Source: Methanobrevibacter sp.
GTDB lineage: Archaea > Methanobacteriota > Methanobacteria > Methanobacteriales > Methanobacteriaceae
NCBI GenBank assembly: GCA_017652345.1
Contig: JAGCBE010000109.1
Coordinates: 1 to 6,781 of the forward strand
DNA length: 6,781 nucleotides
Reading direction: 5' to 3'
Each line of letters opens with the position of its first letter. Within the stretch, counting starts at the first letter, position 1. Under the pieces are notes generated by a model. It searched no databases. It worked only from the letters and a program-made list of their open reading frames with translations, and was not told where the DNA came from. Shown here piece after piece: positions 42 to 6,444 of this stretch. The translations under genes and the position numbers were made by a program.

Positions 42-573
42 TAATAAGCCCCCTTAATTTATTAATATTTTCTTCCATAGAAATTAAAATGTTTTTAATT
101 TCTACACTTGCATTATATTTATTAGTTTCTGAATAGTCAAGTCCTGCAAATAGAGTTACCCTGTTAAAACCGTCTAATGTGCGAGTACCTACACCGTTTC
201 GTTGTGTTTTGGTACTTCTTGTACTATCACGAACAACATTATTACCACAATAAATACCAACGTGTTTACAGTTTCCCAAACCGTCAAAATAACCGACAGT
301 TTCAGCCCCTTGCTCTGTCCATATATAAACAAAAGCACCAACAGGTATTTCTCCAAATGCTTCTATACATTCTTCTACTGTACCCCTCCATGCGTATAAG
401 TTTCTATACATGGAGTTACAACCTTTCCAGTTATAAGGGTTTCCGTTAGATTTAACAACCCCTATATCCTTCAAAACTTCTTCTACAAAAGCTTGACAAT
501 CTAACTGATCGTATTTGTATTTATCCCATTTTGAAAGTAAAGCGCACTCTGCAAACTCTCTACCTGTTTTCAC
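22..573 (-). CDS. Endolysin, NlpC/P60-like cysteine peptidase/amidase
   Basis: A 183-aa protein likely to cut host peptidoglycan at lysis. The N-terminal two thirds reads as an NlpC/P60 (CHAP-like) papain-fold domain. The probable catalytic cysteine is C26 in LDCQAFVEEVL and the catalytic histidine is H104 in KHVGIYCGNN, preceded by the GAFVYIW strand usual in this family. After about residue 150 there is only a short helical, charged tail and no recognisable SH3 or LysM wall-binding repeat. No signal peptide is visible, so it should depend on the holin encoded just upstream. The start is a GTG at 573 that overlaps the holin TGA stop (GTGA, 4 bases). No good ribosome binding site precedes it, suggesting translational coupling to the holin. 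Domain assignment is fairly secure; the exact bond cleaved is not known from sequence. Confidence 0.8.
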   Translation of the reverse strand: MKTGREFAECALLSKWDKYKYDQLDCQAFVEEVLKDIGVVKSNGNPYNWKGCNSMYRNLYAWRGTVEECIEAFGEIPVGAFVYIWTEQGAETVGYFDGLGNCKHVGIYCGNNVVRDSTRSTKTQRNGVGTRTLDGFNRVTLFAGLDYSETNKYNASVEIKNILISMEENINKLRGLINDLHGD

Positions 574-821
574 TTTTCATCATCCAATCTATCAAGTAAT
601 TTTTGTATTACTAACGTATTGTTATTAATGGCTGAAACCATATCACTTTTCTGCTCATTAAGAGCATTAGTAAAACTCAATTTTAGATCGTTCATGGCTT
701 CATTATGTTTCTGTGTTTCCTCCCTATGTTCTTTTTGTTCGTTCTTCAACATAATAAACAGGGCAATAGTACAAGCAATAGGGAATCCGAAATTCTGAAT
801 TAAAGTAACAATTTCCTCCAT
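570..821 (-). CDS. Holin, BhlA/UviB-like small membrane protein
   Basis: An 83-aa protein with one hydrophobic segment at about residues 11-26 (FGFPIACTIALFIMLK). It is followed by a long, highly charged region rich in E, K, Q, N and H (residues 27-83) that should form a helix or coiled coil. A short N-terminal MEEIVTLIQNFGFP lead, a single membrane helix and a KNEQKEHREE-type cytoplasmic tail are the look of the BhlA/UviB holin-like family. It lies directly before the endolysin with a 4-base overlap, forming a two-gene lysis cassette. ATG at 821 was chosen because GGGAGG (834-829) lies seven bases upstream. A TTG at 836 in the same frame falls just before that ribosome binding site and is unlikely. 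The gene follows the structured RNA at 926-847 and is probably transcribed from the same promoter. Confidence 0.75.
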   Translation of the reverse strand: MEEIVTLIQNFGFPIACTIALFIMLKNEQKEHREETQKHNEAMNDLKLSFTNALNEQKSDMVSAINNNTLVIQKLLDRLDDEK

Positions 822-828
822 ATTAAAA

Positions 829-849
829 CCTCCCAAATTAAAAATTGGG
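829..849 (-). promoter_or_regulatory. Hairpin that would mask the holin ribosome binding site
   Basis: On the minus-strand RNA, CCCAA (849-845) is complementary to UUGGG (836-832), with the 8-base loop UUUUUAAU. The GGG on the right arm is the first half of the holin ribosome binding site GGGAGG (834-829). The CCC on the left arm also closes the large helix of the upstream structured RNA by pairing with G926-G924. The two pairings exclude each other. The pairing is seen directly; regulation is inference, and a 5-bp stem is modest. Confidence 0.4.
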
Positions 850-926
850 CTGTTTCACTATCTCATATACTCGCCAGTACATCCCCGTCCTTCTGGGACT
901 TGCGTTGGGGAATAGTGATACAACCC
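847..926 (-). ncRNA. Candidate packaging (prohead) RNA, phi29 pRNA-like fold
   Basis: The minus-strand RNA starting at G926 folds into a three-way junction with the phi29 pRNA layout. The A helix is 926-912 paired with 861-847: 15 positions with one G-U pair (850/923) and one A-A mismatch (854/919). The C helix is CCCC 910-907 with GGGG 886-883, possibly extended by U911-A882. The asymmetric 5' CE bulge is AACGCAA (906-900). The E hairpin is GUCC 899-896 with GGAC 890-887 and loop CAGAA. E joins C directly on its 3' side, as in phi29. The D hairpin is 882-876 with 871-865 (7 bp including a G-U) and loop GGCG. GCG of the D loop is complementary to CGC of the CE bulge, the feature phi29 pRNAs use to form rings. 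The two G-U pairs become C-A mismatches on the plus strand, so the minus strand is favoured. A good promoter places +1 at G926. The core is shorter than phi29 pRNA (about 120 nt functional). A leader or riboswitch for the lysis genes is the main alternative. Confidence 0.7.
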
Positions 927-932
927 ATTAAT

Positions 933-961
933 AATATAATAAAAAAAGTCCCCTCTGTAAA
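933..961 (-). promoter_or_regulatory. Sigma-A-like promoter for the structured RNA and lysis genes
   Basis: The minus strand carries TTTACA (961-956) and TATATT (938-933), separated by exactly 17 bases. Each hexamer matches five of six consensus positions. Six bases after the -10 box comes GGG (926-924), a natural start that coincides with the 5' edge of the folded RNA. The -35 box overlaps the loop and one closing base of the upstream terminator hairpin, so one short stretch ends the previous transcript and begins the next. Confidence 0.65.
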
Positions 962-968
962 GAGGGGA
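941..968 (-). terminator. Intrinsic terminator after the probable SSB gene
   Basis: A perfect 8-bp GC-rich stem (968-961 with 956-949, arms TCCCCTCT and AGAGGGGA) with a 4-base loop is followed on the minus strand by C and seven Ts (947-941). It lies 11 bases after the stop codon at 980. The plus strand also has a T-rich tail (TTTTATTTTT from 969), so the element could work in both directions, although no plus-strand gene is seen to need it. Confidence 0.9.
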
Positions 969-979
969 TTTTATTTTTG

Positions 980-1309
980 TTATTCTTCTGCAAGTTCAAA
1001 ATTGACGTACTTGTTATTTTTCTTACTAAGATTAATAACAATTTTGATGCAAGGTTTTTCACTATCCTGGCAATCTCCGAAAGCTTCATCATATTTCATA
1101 AACTTTTCAATAAAAGCCTGCACTTCCGTCTTATAGAATTTACCGTCTTTACCGTTCTTAATAACAAGGACAGTATGTTCTTTGCCATCACTACCCGTAT
1201 AGGTGTGAGTATGGTATGCGACCGGAGAAATAATCATACCCTCACAATCTTTAAGGTTTGTGTGCTTTCCGTTCATAGCATTAAACAGTTCCATTTTAGT
1301 AAGTTCCAT
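980..1309 (-). CDS. Probable single-stranded DNA-binding protein (phi29 p5-like role)
   Basis: A 109-aa soluble protein. ATG at 1309 is chosen because GAAAGGGG lies eight bases upstream. An in-frame extension to 1399 would run back through the promoter and has no ribosome binding site. The sequence reads like alternating beta strands of a small OB-type fold: LFNAMNGKHTNLKDCEG, then IISPVAYHTHTYTG, TVLVIKNGKDGKFYKTEV, a helix AFIEKFMKYDEAFG, then IKIVINLSK and YVNFELAEE with an acidic end. This arrangement resembles the phage SSBs found in phi29-like replication modules, but the match is by pattern, not alignment. It has its own strong promoter and terminator, fitting a protein needed in bulk to coat strands displaced during protein-primed replication. 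It follows the packaging ATPase. If not an SSB, it is an unassigned abundant early protein. Confidence 0.5.
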   Translation of the reverse strand: MELTKMELFNAMNGKHTNLKDCEGMIISPVAYHTHTYTGSDGKEHTVLVIKNGKDGKFYKTEVQAFIEKFMKYDEAFGDCQDSEKPCIKIVINLSKKNNKYVNFELAEE

Positions 1310-1340
1310 AGGTTTATCCCCTTTCAAATAATTATTATCT

Positions 1341-1399: not shown

Positions 1400-2410
1400 T
1401 TAATTTAGATTAAATAAATCTCTGAATAATATTTCAAGTTCAAACGACTCAAACCAAACATTTTTACTAACCATATAATGAACACGTAACATATAATAAT
1501 CTTGTGTAAACATTTTTAAACCAATACCGAAAGCATCATAATACGGTTTAGTTTCCTGGATTGATGAAACATAATATTTTCTTTCGGATTTATGCTTATA
1601 TATTCCTATTTCACCAACGGAAACCAAATGCACATATTCCCGTAAAGGTTCGGATTTTATATTGGTTTCATCAGTTCTAAAAGCATTATCCAAAGCCATT
1701 TGTATAAAATCATCAGACGCATTTTTATATAACATTGTTTCTCGTTTTTTCTCACTTATTGGAGAATCTAACAACATAACTAACATTCTTGTCCGATCTG
1801 CCTTTCTCCATACCATTTGTTTACCAACAATCATTTTAATTGCAGTTTTCATTAAATGCCAGGATGCAAAATACGGATTACTTAATTTATTAGCATTTCC
1901 TAACATAATAACCTTTACAGCTTCTTTTCCTTCTAATTCCCTGTTACGGTTTACCGTTTCAACAAAATTCTGAAAAGCACTAAACTCATTTTTAATAGAC
2001 ATTTCACCAATACTTGCTATAAATTCATCAAATACGATATAATCATAATCTGAAAAATCTATACCCCTTATATTAGCTACCACCGATAAAGCTACACCAT
2101 ATGCAACAATATCACCATTTTTATCATTATACCGAAAAATAATATTATTACCGGATGAAAACGGTTTTATATTTATTTCCATATCAATATTTAATTTTTT
2201 AAAGGGGTTACCTTCAATAGTAGCACATTGTTCTAACTGTGTTTTTAATCGTCGCAAATATATAAACTTCTTACCCTCTTTAATTAGTTTTTTAAAAACA
2301 CCGTAAGTTTTACCTACACCCCGTGATCCAACAACAGTTATAATACTTTCAACTTGTGACATTAAATAATCCCAATCTACATAACCATTATCACCATAAA
2401 TCTTACTCAT
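1400..2410 (-). CDS. DNA encapsidation (packaging) ATPase, phi29 gp16-like
   Basis: A 336-aa packaging motor ATPase (phi29 gp16 is 332 aa) that would pump the genome into the prohead. Seen directly: Walker A GSRGVGKT at residues 28-35, then KKFIYLRRLKTQLE (47-60), then ALSVVANIRG before Walker B YIVFDEF (124-130, catalytic E129), then NFVETVNRNRE (148-158) and a sensor-like VIMLGNANKLSNPYF (167-181). These blocks occur in the same order and spacing as in phi29 gp16 (GARGIGKS, FIYVRR, IVFDEFI, RNRE, NPYF). ATG at 2410 is chosen over an in-frame ATG at 2455 because GAAGGGAG precedes it at about ten bases, it follows the polymerase stop by one base, and the resulting length matches gp16. Unlike phi29, where gp16 is a late gene on the other strand, here it follows the polymerase in the same operon. 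In phi29 this enzyme works with pRNA, and a pRNA candidate lies downstream at 926-847. Confidence 0.93.
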   Translation of the reverse strand: MSKIYGDNGYVDWDYLMSQVESIITVVGSRGVGKTYGVFKKLIKEGKKFIYLRRLKTQLEQCATIEGNPFKKLNIDMEINIKPFSSGNNIIFRYNDKNGDIVAYGVALSVVANIRGIDFSDYDYIVFDEFIASIGEMSIKNEFSAFQNFVETVNRNRELEGKEAVKVIMLGNANKLSNPYFASWHLMKTAIKMIVGKQMVWRKADRTRMLVMLLDSPISEKKRETMLYKNASDDFIQMALDNAFRTDETNIKSEPLREYVHLVSVGEIGIYKHKSERKYYVSSIQETKPYYDAFGIGLKMFTQDYYMLRVHYMVSKNVWFESFELEILFRDLFNLN

Positions 2411-2411
2411 T

Positions 2412-4601
2412 TTAAGAGTGCTCCCTTCTATAATCTCCGTATAACTGTATTTCATTTAACAATAAACGATAATCCTTTGCATAGGTCATTTTGTAAGTAC
2501 CTGGAACAATGGCAACATTTTTTGTTATATGTACCTTCCTTCCGGTTTCTTTATCAGTATAATAAAAATCATCATTATCATTATAAACTGAAATTGTACC
2601 TCCTGCTTTATGCCAGGTCATTCCCTCCTTTATCAAATCCCCCTCATCATTAAATATATCCGGATGAAAATTTTCTAATGTTCCTAATTCTTCTACGGCA
2701 AAACTTACTCCGGTTTCTTCATTAATCTTTTTGCTTACTCCTGCAACTGTTATACCCATTTTACCGTTAACAATATAAGCGTATCTTTTTGCCCCCTGTG
2801 TAATAAACTGATCATAAAATCCGTCATTCTCCCATAAGCCTATATAATGAACAACCCCCTTTTTATCAGTTGCAAATGCTTTATTATTAACGGCTTTTTG
2901 TTTTAATTTATCATTTAAAACAGATATATTTATATCCCCTTCAACTTTTACACTATCTGTATCGACATACACCAATTTATCACCGCAAAGCTTTATAGCC
3001 GATTGTAACTGTGCTCTCCCTAAACTTGTGGTATACACCCCCCATTGATACGGAAATGGAGCATTTTTTAATAATTTTTCAAGTTCCTTTTTCGTATAAT
3101 CATCATAATCCGATTTATAAAAATCTCCATCATGTTTTTTCTCAATAGTGTGTAAAGGATCGTATGTTATAGAAGTATGTACGGGATCGGTCATAGACAT
3201 TCCAAACACCGCATTTAGCAAATTTTTACTTTTCATATACATATACAAGCCATCTTCCGAATCGTCCCCTTTTAATCCGGTTTTATTATTAAAATAACTT
3301 TGTATTACTTCTCTATATTCTACGGGTAACATATCCTTTTCGGCTACCATAGCTTCAATACAATCAAATTCATCATAAGTATATTGATCTAACACTATTT
3401 TTAAATCAATCTCCGTAAGTGCTATCTCCATATACCCAGCTTGCAAAACTCGCCCGTTATCTACTAATAATTCTAACCCTCCTTGCATTGTTTCATCATC
3501 GGTACTAACCGCATCACATTTACTTAAACTAATATAAGGTATTGGTTCTTTTTGTTTTTTCAATCTTATATTTTTAAATTGATATAACCCTACAACCGCA
3601 TAATTTAAACCAATAAACATAAAAATTCTTTCAATTCTTTTTCTTGCGGTTTTATTTTTAATATCTAACCATTTAAAAGGTTTCATTGGGAATAATTGTG
3701 TTAATTGTTGTGTTGGGTAAGAGGATGATATGTCAAAAGATTGTACATTTGAAATAATCTTACCCACTTTATACATATTTGCGTGGGTATTACCACCCCT
3801 TGCGCACTTGCGCAACAAACGGTATTGTTCTTCATCCGGTTTTAATGATCGTAATTCCATGTAATAATCTTTCAACGCTTCTTTACATTCCCTCCGAACA
3901 TAACCCGTACTTGTTAAAGGCATTGTTTCCAGTGTATCACCACCCTTTATAACTCTGTATTTCATAGCTTGTACAAGTGATTCCGTATCCGTCAATGTGT
4001 ATTCAAGTTCAAAAGGGGTTAATTCTGTCCAGGGAAACCGAATTTTATCATAATCGAATTTTTGACCGGATAATTTTTCCTTTACACCTGTTTGTTTACA
4101 TAATGCCGATAAACTTAAATTACTTTGAATATAACTACATCTAAACTCAAATATATCAAACATTCTACAATAAATAGGCTTACGCACATCACGAAAAAAT
4201 ATTTCTTCATTTTTAAACGGATAAACACCGCTAAAGAAAGTCCATTCGAAAGCAAGATTATGTATAAAACAAACCATTATCGGCAAATCGGACAAACTAT
4301 AATTTATTTTTAATTTCTCTATGCACCTTTTTAACAAATTTAACCAATCAAAAAATTCTTCCCATGTTCTACCTTGTACAGTATATTCTTCAATGGTAAA
4401 TGTCCAAATATACATAAAACTATGCACATCATATAACTGTTTATTAGGATTACACCATATAGAAGTAGTTTCTATATCAAAAGCAGTAAAAACGTTAATA
4501 ATTCTCTGTTTAATCCGTTTCCTTTTGTTTTTTGTCGGTTCAACTAAACCAAATGATAATAAATATTCATACCAATTTATATCATTCACATTTACCAACA
4601 T
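2412..4601 (-). CDS. Protein-primed family B DNA polymerase
   Basis: A 729-aa replicative polymerase of the phi29 type (DNA_pol_B_2), with 3'-5' exonuclease and strand-displacing synthesis from a terminal protein. Exo I is FDIETT (D42, E44), Exo II is HNLAFEW (N115, E119), Exo III is YTLTD (Y201, D205). An ARGGNTHAN block (267-275) matches the YxGG region linking the exo and pol domains. Motif A is DISSSYP (290-296), motif B is KNLLNAVFG (459-467), motif C is YVDTDS (D547, D549), and KRY (605-607) is the KxY motif. It is longer than the 572-575-aa phi29 enzyme, with about 35 extra residues between motifs A and B (TPR2 area) and about 60 extra after motif C. Exo II has Glu where phi29 has Asp66. 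ATG at 4601 has GAGGGG seven bases upstream and follows the previous stop by one base. The frame is intact. Confidence 0.97.
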   Translation of the reverse strand: MLVNVNDINWYEYLLSFGLVEPTKNKRKRIKQRIINVFTAFDIETTSIWCNPNKQLYDVHSFMYIWTFTIEEYTVQGRTWEEFFDWLNLLKRCIEKLKINYSLSDLPIMVCFIHNLAFEWTFFSGVYPFKNEEIFFRDVRKPIYCRMFDIFEFRCSYIQSNLSLSALCKQTGVKEKLSGQKFDYDKIRFPWTELTPFELEYTLTDTESLVQAMKYRVIKGGDTLETMPLTSTGYVRRECKEALKDYYMELRSLKPDEEQYRLLRKCARGGNTHANMYKVGKIISNVQSFDISSSYPTQQLTQLFPMKPFKWLDIKNKTARKRIERIFMFIGLNYAVVGLYQFKNIRLKKQKEPIPYISLSKCDAVSTDDETMQGGLELLVDNGRVLQAGYMEIALTEIDLKIVLDQYTYDEFDCIEAMVAEKDMLPVEYREVIQSYFNNKTGLKGDDSEDGLYMYMKSKNLLNAVFGMSMTDPVHTSITYDPLHTIEKKHDGDFYKSDYDDYTKKELEKLLKNAPFPYQWGVYTTSLGRAQLQSAIKLCGDKLVYVDTDSVKVEGDINISVLNDKLKQKAVNNKAFATDKKGVVHYIGLWENDGFYDQFITQGAKRYAYIVNGKMGITVAGVSKKINEETGVSFAVEELGTLENFHPDIFNDEGDLIKEGMTWHKAGGTISVYNDNDDFYYTDKETGRKVHITKNVAIVPGTYKMTYAKDYRLLLNEIQLYGDYRREHS

Positions 4602-6194: not shown

Positions 6195-6444
6195 CAGTAT
6201 ATTCCCCTCTCATTGAAACAATACATTTTGTACTTGTGGCAGTAAATGACCGGATGCACATTGAATAAGTTGAAATGTAAATAAAACAGACAAATTCACC
6301 ATTTGCGAATAACATACCCGATTCGCTACTAACACTTTTACTCCTGGAAACTACATACTTTAATTCCCTTAAAGCCCTATAATATAGGGCTTTAAAAGAA
6401 TTAAATTCATACATAACACCGTTGGACAGTTCAGCTTTAAACAT
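6184..6444 (-). CDS. Small early protein of unknown function
   Basis: An 86-aa protein that I do not recognise. It begins MFKAELSNGVMYEFNSFKALYYRALRE, probably a strand-strand-helix unit. A Ser-rich linker (SRSKSVSSESG, residues 33-43) follows, then a beta-rich, Cys/Ser/Thr-rich half (FVCFIYISTYSMCIRSF). ATG 6444 directly abuts the preceding stop codon, and its ribosome binding site GCGGAGG lies inside the end of that gene, so the two should be translated together. Codons 17-25 contain a perfect 13-bp-arm DNA dyad (6369-6395), recorded separately. Confidence 0.75.
   Translation of the reverse strand: MFKAELSNGVMYEFNSFKALYYRALRELKYVVSRSKSVSSESGMLFANGEFVCFIYISTYSMCIRSFTATSTKCIVSMRGEYTDAN
6369..6395. 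repeat. Perfect 27-base dyad inside a coding sequence
   Basis: Arms TTAAAGCCCTATA (6369-6381) and TATAGGGCTTTAA (6383-6395) are exact inverted copies around one central base. The dyad lies within the 86-aa gene. No T-run follows on either strand, so it is not an intrinsic terminator. It could be a protein-binding site, an RNase target in the mRNA, or a cruciform-forming site. Its function is unknown. Confidence 0.85.

Follow-up and report, generated by a model that had tools for sequence, protein, structure and literature searches.

What is the RNA encoded on the minus strand at positions 847..926 of the window, the whole 6,781-nt stretch of DNA analysed here? RNA rings that serve packaging motors are known chiefly from phi29-like phages of Bacillus. 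We predict, with high confidence, that this locus encodes such a molecule, a phi29-type packaging (prohead) RNA, hereafter pRNA.

The minimum free energy (MFE) and centroid folds of the RNA are concordant (-33.9 kcal/mol, z -4.55), and none of 200 shuffled sequences folded as well. Both structures show exactly the phi29 order of elements that the sequence-only reading had described for a minus-strand RNA starting at G926, namely A helix, C helix, CE bulge, E hairpin, return to C, D hairpin and back to A. The RNA is also more stable than every other stretch sampled (1342 segments of 80 nt, 10-nt step, both strands). The next most stable of the sampled stretches, at about 6332-6441 (-) with -31.0 kcal/mol per 80 nt, contains a near-perfect hairpin within a small reading frame.

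The predicted 80-nt core (847..926, -) has its 5' end at G926 and is delimited by its fold and by a match at 852-921 to our covariance model R2, with a score of 72.3 bits that is to be read knowing that the window itself belongs to the R2 training set. Fold and relatives together define an A helix in which the outer 5' strand (920..926, -) pairs with 853-847 and the inner 5' strand (911..918, -) with 862-855, the 3' strands thus occupying 847..862 (-). They also define the C helix, whose 5' strand CCCC (907..910, -) pairs with 886-883. A 7-nt CE bulge, AACGCAA (900..906, -), leads to the E hairpin (887..899, -), which carries the loop CAGAA at 895-891, and the D hairpin (865..882, -) carries the loop GGCG at 875-872. 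The CGC of the bulge (904-902) is complementary to the GCG of the D loop (874-872), a match that was absent from the earlier reading. Directly 3' of the A helix lies the U-rich stretch AAUUUUUAAUUU (846-835, -), and a ribosome-binding site, judged by eye, is found downstream of the core. The description of the core as compact holds for its size of about 80 nt but not as a distinguishing trait: an identical topology scan of phi29, used as a positive control, recovered the real pRNA as a 79-nt core with AACC:GGUU as bulge and loop, and about 80 nt is therefore the ordinary size for a core domain.

The minus strand carries, in order, genes for a DNA polymerase, a gp16-type ATPase and a phi29-type single-stranded DNA-binding protein (SSB), then the RNA, a holin-like gene and a 183-aa frame for which no family match was found. 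The claim that the RNA lies in a phage region with a gp16-type ATPase is borne out by the frame at 1400..2455 (-), which matches Pfam Podovirus_Gp16 (PF05894, E 2.9e-20) and a PHROG terminase. The 5' part of this frame overlaps the end of the polymerase by 44 nt. Since most of the 120 relatives listed have an ATPase of about 336 aa, without the first 15 residues, the true start is probably at 2410. The polymerase (2412..4601, -) is of the family-B type (phrog_1907), its Pfam DNA_pol_B_2 score of 25.6 bits being slightly below the cut-off of 25.8, and the SSB (980..1312, -) matches PF17427 and phrog_6243. The best match of the holin-like gene downstream of the RNA (570..821, -) is PHROG 9829 (2.1e-7), whose function is not known, with holin PHROG 4898 (4.9e-4) ranking second. 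No gp10 connector gene was seen in the window, which covers part of a genome; the gp10 family is present in 12/12 of the relatives' records examined. A blastn search of the region against phages returned nothing.

A sigma-70-like promoter, TTTACA-17-TATATT (933..961, -), predicts a transcription start at G926, which sits 7 nt past the TATATT box, itself 17 nt from TTTACA. This arrangement was likewise missing from the earlier reading. The site scores 10/12, and sites of that score are no rarer in shuffles of the whole window. Its -35 box covers the loop and adjacent stem bases of an intrinsic-terminator-like hairpin of the upstream gene (949..968, -). Among 86 aligned loci, 73 have a site of at least 9/12 within the 60 nt preceding the core, versus 76 of 1720 stretches drawn at random from these loci; a perfect 12/12 site is present in 10, versus none of the 1720.

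Related loci were collected by the similarity of their ATPases. A query with the single ATPase sequence returned nothing; a gp16 alignment query (A1) gave IMG/VR loci L001-L080, the best 80 of 276, and a second gp16 query gave L089-L168, the best 80 of 472. In about 12 closest relatives, the frame in the position of the SSB gene is followed by a very stable structure with the topology of the window's RNA, and in most of them a holin-like frame comes next. Covariance models were built from 11 RNAs (R1) and from 39 RNAs (R2); R1 also yielded one antisense row, in L010 (E 0.008). At E<1e-3, R2 matches 25 of the best 80 of 276 loci (L001-L080) and 70 of the best 80 of 472 (L089-L168). None of the 25 is among the 44 loci L037-L080, where the identity of the best gp16 segment does not exceed 36%. 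In the second set, L089-L168, 7/80 loci have no R2 row at E<=1, two of these (L156 and L168) ending 283 and 254 nt past gp16, and 3 more have rows at E 0.06-0.23. The R2-positive IMG/VR contigs are 91 distinct ones, four being common to both sets, and R2 also matches the window and L084, one of three human-faecal records.

The matched RNAs are encoded downstream of gp16, on its strand; we refer to them as class 1. In the 84 aligned loci with coordinates for both, the core mostly begins 155-280 nt past the gp16 match (66 loci); it begins after 26-65 nt in 5 and after 443-619 nt in 13. The group at 443-619 nt consists of the close kin of the window together with L013 and L028; those of its members that were examined have a frame of 110-137 aa in the interval.

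Within 14 named or unannotated phage records, L084 is the single R2 match. There is none in phi29, Cp-1, phi44AHJD, asccphi28, Enterococcus Chl-5, Rhizobium N3_8, Eggerthella LE1-1, Bifidobacterium BD811P3, Curtobacterium Transit, Amedibacillus AD70P2 and AD70P3, L083 or L085. The gp16 proteins of L083 (MT835998) and L085 (MT837693) are 50.3% and 44.0% identical to that of the class-1 carrier L114, and in these two human-gut records no such RNA was found by model or by eye. The missing RNA in some gp16 relatives may reflect true absence or a failure of the model. Of six contigs from metagenome-assembled genomes (MAGs), in different bins, three match R2 at E<1e-3 and another two have weaker rows, binning being no evidence of host. 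Class-1 RNAs also occur in bacterial MAG bins, at L178:5989-6059 and L177:6220-6289 (Treponema caballi bin, Clostridia bin), possibly on mis-binned phage contigs.

The sequence-only reading had looked to covarying helices at the same locus in gp16 relatives for support, and these are strongly present in 11, 39 and 86 RNAs: the relatives keep the fold downstream of gp16 though the helix letters are largely replaced. In 11 close RNAs, 96.2% of the cells pair, with double changes at 19/31 pairs and in 74 cells, versus 22.6 in shuffled alignments. For 39 diverse RNAs, the covariation score is 0.896 (0.209 shuffled, at most 0.177 when the structure is slid). Alignment A5 holds 86 of the 97 R2 matches, 11 same-contig or near-duplicate ones being excluded. 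Here 94.0% of 1955 cells pair, 782 double-sided changes are counted versus 218.1 in shuffles, and the score reaches 1.012 (0.209 shuffled, slid versions at most 0.144), figures that are favoured by the fitting of A5 to the model. Two of the five A5 measures, both close to saturation, stay near shuffle level, with 23 double-change pairs versus 21.7 (34/500 shuffles reach this) and 87 further pair types versus 87.7. A4 is a plain MAFFT alignment, and its structure was drawn up with the rows in view.

The two loops give a further view of the same RNAs. Selection by topology and a C.GAA E loop retained 72 of 112 regions, 65 of them distinct. In 64 of these 65 cores, chosen without that criterion, bulge and D loop form at least 3 Watson-Crick (WC) pairs (2000 shuffles: mean 20.8, max 32). 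Only L018 falls short: it has a different D hairpin when folded, and UGAC:GUCA in the model alignment. Among R2 matches held out from training, which are kin of the training RNAs, 44/44 unique bulge/loop pairs reach 3 bp of complementarity or more (shuffled mean 17.6, max 26), as do 32/32 unique pairs of the training rows (shuffled mean 12.9, max 21), some pairs being common to both groups. All 86 aligned RNAs show complementarity of at least 3 bp, in pairs as different as CGC:GCG, GGCA:UGCC (L114), CUC:GAG, AGGG:CCCU, GUGC:GCAC and GUAUCA:UGAUAC. When the bulge has 7 nt (66 RNAs), its central triplet forms WC pairs throughout with the D loop in 64, and includes a G-U pair in the other 2; the triplet occurs in 18 variants, for which a gp16 tree with 66 tips demands at least 21 changes. 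All rows but one (85/86) have CNGAA as their E loop, the exception being CGAAA in L148, a uniformity that is partly due to the choice of the training set by E loop. Topology, C.GAA and a 3-bp complementarity are found together in 29 of 40 random regions downstream of gp16, and in none of 40 dinucleotide-shuffled copies or 40 upstream regions.

In phi29 pRNA, the CE bulge pairs with the D loop of a neighbouring molecule and matched loops are required, two G/C pairs between loops being enough, according to the passages of PMC12670572 on this contact. As far as sequences can tell, the compensated bulge:loop complementarity is the decisive evidence for a packaging RNA. Overall, helix covariation, covarying complementarity of CE bulge and D loop, and the connector in 12/12 relatives' records support the packaging-RNA reading.

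The comparison with phi29 pRNA (RF00044, Phage_pRNA) reveals a common anatomy. The order A-C-CE bulge-E-C-D-A is the same, in cores of 79 nt (phi29) and 80 nt (here), and the CE bulge is complementary to the D loop in both, with AACC:GGUU in phi29 and CGC:GCG in the window. Both phages have a gp16 ATPase and a phi29-type SSB, with the connector present in the window's relatives, and next to the RNA lies promoter A1 (328-356) in phi29 and a predicted, sigma-70-like promoter in the window. In contrast, the E loop is CNGAA here and UUGAGU in the computed phi29 fold, the kissing letters stand in the middle of the bulge here and at its 3' end in phi29, and the unpaired D/A junction seen here has no counterpart in the computed phi29 fold. 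In addition, the RNA gene lies downstream of gp16 here, whereas that of phi29 is near a genome end (147-320, PMC11476376).

At the level of sequence models, RF00044 gives no row in the window at E<=10 (gathering threshold 100 bits); it scores 145.4 bits on phi29 and has no match in 9/9 other, non-phi29 sources. Conversely, R2 does not find phi29 pRNA with filters off. This lack of a model match in either direction weighs against the packaging-RNA reading, as do the two human-gut records without such an RNA and the second-set loci with no R2 row or weak ones. The RNA resembles a pRNA in its anatomy and stands outside RF00044 by sequence model, and it is therefore filed as a new family; a new pRNA family outside RF00044 is the best reading of the class-1 RNAs from their sequences.

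Divergence of this kind has precedents. For Bacillus-group pRNAs (GA-1, SF5, M2/NF, B103, DLc1, Bfsp1 and others), the text of PMC12670572 on these phages describes a kept fold and paired loops with little shared sequence, and a 12% similarity is quoted in a passage of PMC5340915. Fold and paired loops are alike in our RNAs, our letter-by-letter comparison being with phi29. These pRNAs come from phages of Bacillus and its kin in the sections concerned of PMC9965433, PMC6266182 and PMC12670572. A passage of PMC6266182 also speaks of 'the pRNA of Cp1' (Streptococcus phage Cp-1), attributed to Martin et al. 1996. Cp-1 is, like the carriers described here, a gp16-type phage outside Bacillus; it has no R2 row, and its only row with R3, the model of the second family described below, is at E 0.37. 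A topology match in Cp-1 (L169:4687-4802, -) has a 6-bp bulge:loop match, UGGUUA:UAACCA, and the weak R3 row lies at a separate place, 18023-18159. In Amedibacillus phage AD70P3 (L081:6276-6398, -), the gap after gp16 folds to the same topology, with the bulge AUAUCCAA, the D loop GGGA and UCC:GGA pairing, a candidate from its fold alone. For AD70P2 (L173:6384-6506, -), another fold is preferred in the full gap and the topology emerges in a shorter segment. R2 finds neither the AD70P2 nor the AD70P3 candidate.

In the pRNA literature searched, mostly outside subscription papers, pRNAs are reported from Bacillus-group phages and one is mentioned for Cp-1; we found none for gut phages of this kind. 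The class-1 motif might stand, under no name, in PMC8040213, which surveys microbiomes for candidate structured RNAs. A pRNA-dependent ATPase is assumed for Clostridium phages in PMC3362512, in a passage that gives no RNA name.

A second family (class 2) emerged from the distant loci. The scan of L037-L080 for topology and complementarity returned 15 places; three became class 2 and the rest were taken as chance. These three loci have a similar RNA just upstream of gp16, with the E loop GAAGA. A class-2 gp16 query gave loci L183-L262, the best 80 of 322, and a covariance model, R3, was made from 31 class-2 sequences. At E<1e-3, R3 matches 36 of these best 80 of 322 loci, seven of them outside training (L228, L197, L191 and L189 being the less redundant ones), and leaves 44/80 without a match. 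The RNA at L198:1366-1453 (+) is an example. Between the end of the class-2 RNA and the gp16 match there are typically about 40-80 nt; the RNA is farther off, 200-520 nt ahead of the gp16 match, in L215 and L228, as well as in the weaker rows L226, L234 and L235.

The class-2 helix score is 0.470 versus 0.202 shuffled in a plain alignment, and 0.639 versus 0.211 in the model-fitted one. The loops depend on how they are aligned. In the model-fitted alignment, 34/35 unique pairs are complementary (shuffled mean 19.4, max 27), with a summed length of 136 reached by 0/5000 shuffles. Constrained folds give a middling result, with 14/22 reaching at least 3 bp (shuffled mean 8.9, max 15) and a summed length of 72 (shuffled mean 54.8, max 67), and fixed columns on a MAFFT alignment a weak one, with 100/155 WC cells (shuffled mean 88.7, max 107). 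We accept class 2 on account of the model-fitted loop complementarity and the covarying helices.

Applied to 38 sources, among them the 14 phage records above and, as eight class-1 carriers, the window plus seven loci, R3 gave only rows at E 0.37, 2.5 and 8.4. Seven more human-faecal gp16 neighbourhoods (L263-L269) contained one R2 match, in L263 (2e-4), and no R3 match. Topology with complementary loops beside gp16 was seen in L264 (GUCG:CGAC), L266 (AAAAG:CUUUU) and L269 (AGCAA:UUGCU), three cases picked on complementarity. The L269 RNA (MT836502, 1480-1578, +), upstream of gp16, has a 20-bp A helix, the E loop GUGAAA, the bulge ACAGCAA and the D loop UUGCU with a 5-bp match, and is possibly a third variety.

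Could this RNA have another role? It comes after a promoter-like site with a gene close behind, as would a cis-acting 5' leader of the late genes (holin/lysin) that controls mRNA stability or translation, and the next gene belongs to one holin-like cluster in 68/86 loci. The other 18 next genes are spread over 11 other clusters (BLAST 1e-4), 6/18 picks lying more than 200 nt off, a count in which remote kinship could be missed and a nearer short gene may have been skipped. Given these 18 genes, the link between RNA and holin does not appear to be strict. Furthermore, a leader would have no need for the exact pRNA topology plus matching bulge and loop letters, and the second family is located upstream of gp16 instead. 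We consider a leader alone quite improbable; the RNA could also serve as one, since a single holin-like cluster accounts for most next genes.

Complementarity per se cannot separate intermolecular from intramolecular pairing, and a small RNA acting as a decoy, in counter-defence or in replication could use its bulge to pair with its own D loop in a pseudoknot. However, the pairing elements are identical to the two of the phi29 ring, the RNA accompanies gp16 and connector, and in phi29 structures the CE bulge and D loop of one molecule point away from each other, all of which leaves the pseudoknot with very little likelihood. A third alternative is a DNA-level element that combines a terminator and a long hairpin and does not function as an RNA. 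The strong terminator-like hairpin directly upstream would suit it, but the asymmetric bulge, the conserved E-loop letters and the bulge/loop covariation point to single-stranded RNA, and we hold this reading to be exceedingly unlikely.

As a packaging RNA, the molecule would work as follows. From the sigma-70-like site, transcription would begin at the base of the A helix. Transcribed copies would then link bulge-to-loop with their neighbours, as phi29 loops pair, to form a ring on the connector. By analogy with phi29, the E hairpin would face the capsid, the A helix would bear the gp16 ATPases, and the RNA ring would enable DNA translocation by the motor. The loop letters would act as a changeable address, of which a matching pair is maintained in each phage.

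The data set comprises well over 100 examples in two new families (86 and 40 distinct rows). Class-1 RNAs, with the E loop CNGAA, lie downstream of gp16 on contigs no longer than about 15 kb; class-2 RNAs lie upstream of gp16, with the E loop GAAGA, mostly on contigs of 14-18 kb. On balance, and with some hesitation, we favour the view that packaging RNA, far from being peculiar to Bacillus phages, is an old and widespread part of the gp16-type motors of small phages, with class 1, class 2 and RF00044 as three branches. All branches would retain the ring contact and rewrite its letters, so that the loop pair may be a fast-changing self-recognition code. In the two families the E loop and the junction are the fixed parts, and helices and loop letters are those that drift; the covariance models address RNAs that the present Rfam pRNA model fails to find. 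The debate over pentamers and hexamers, like RNA nanotechnology, could draw on these natural sets of differing ring contacts.
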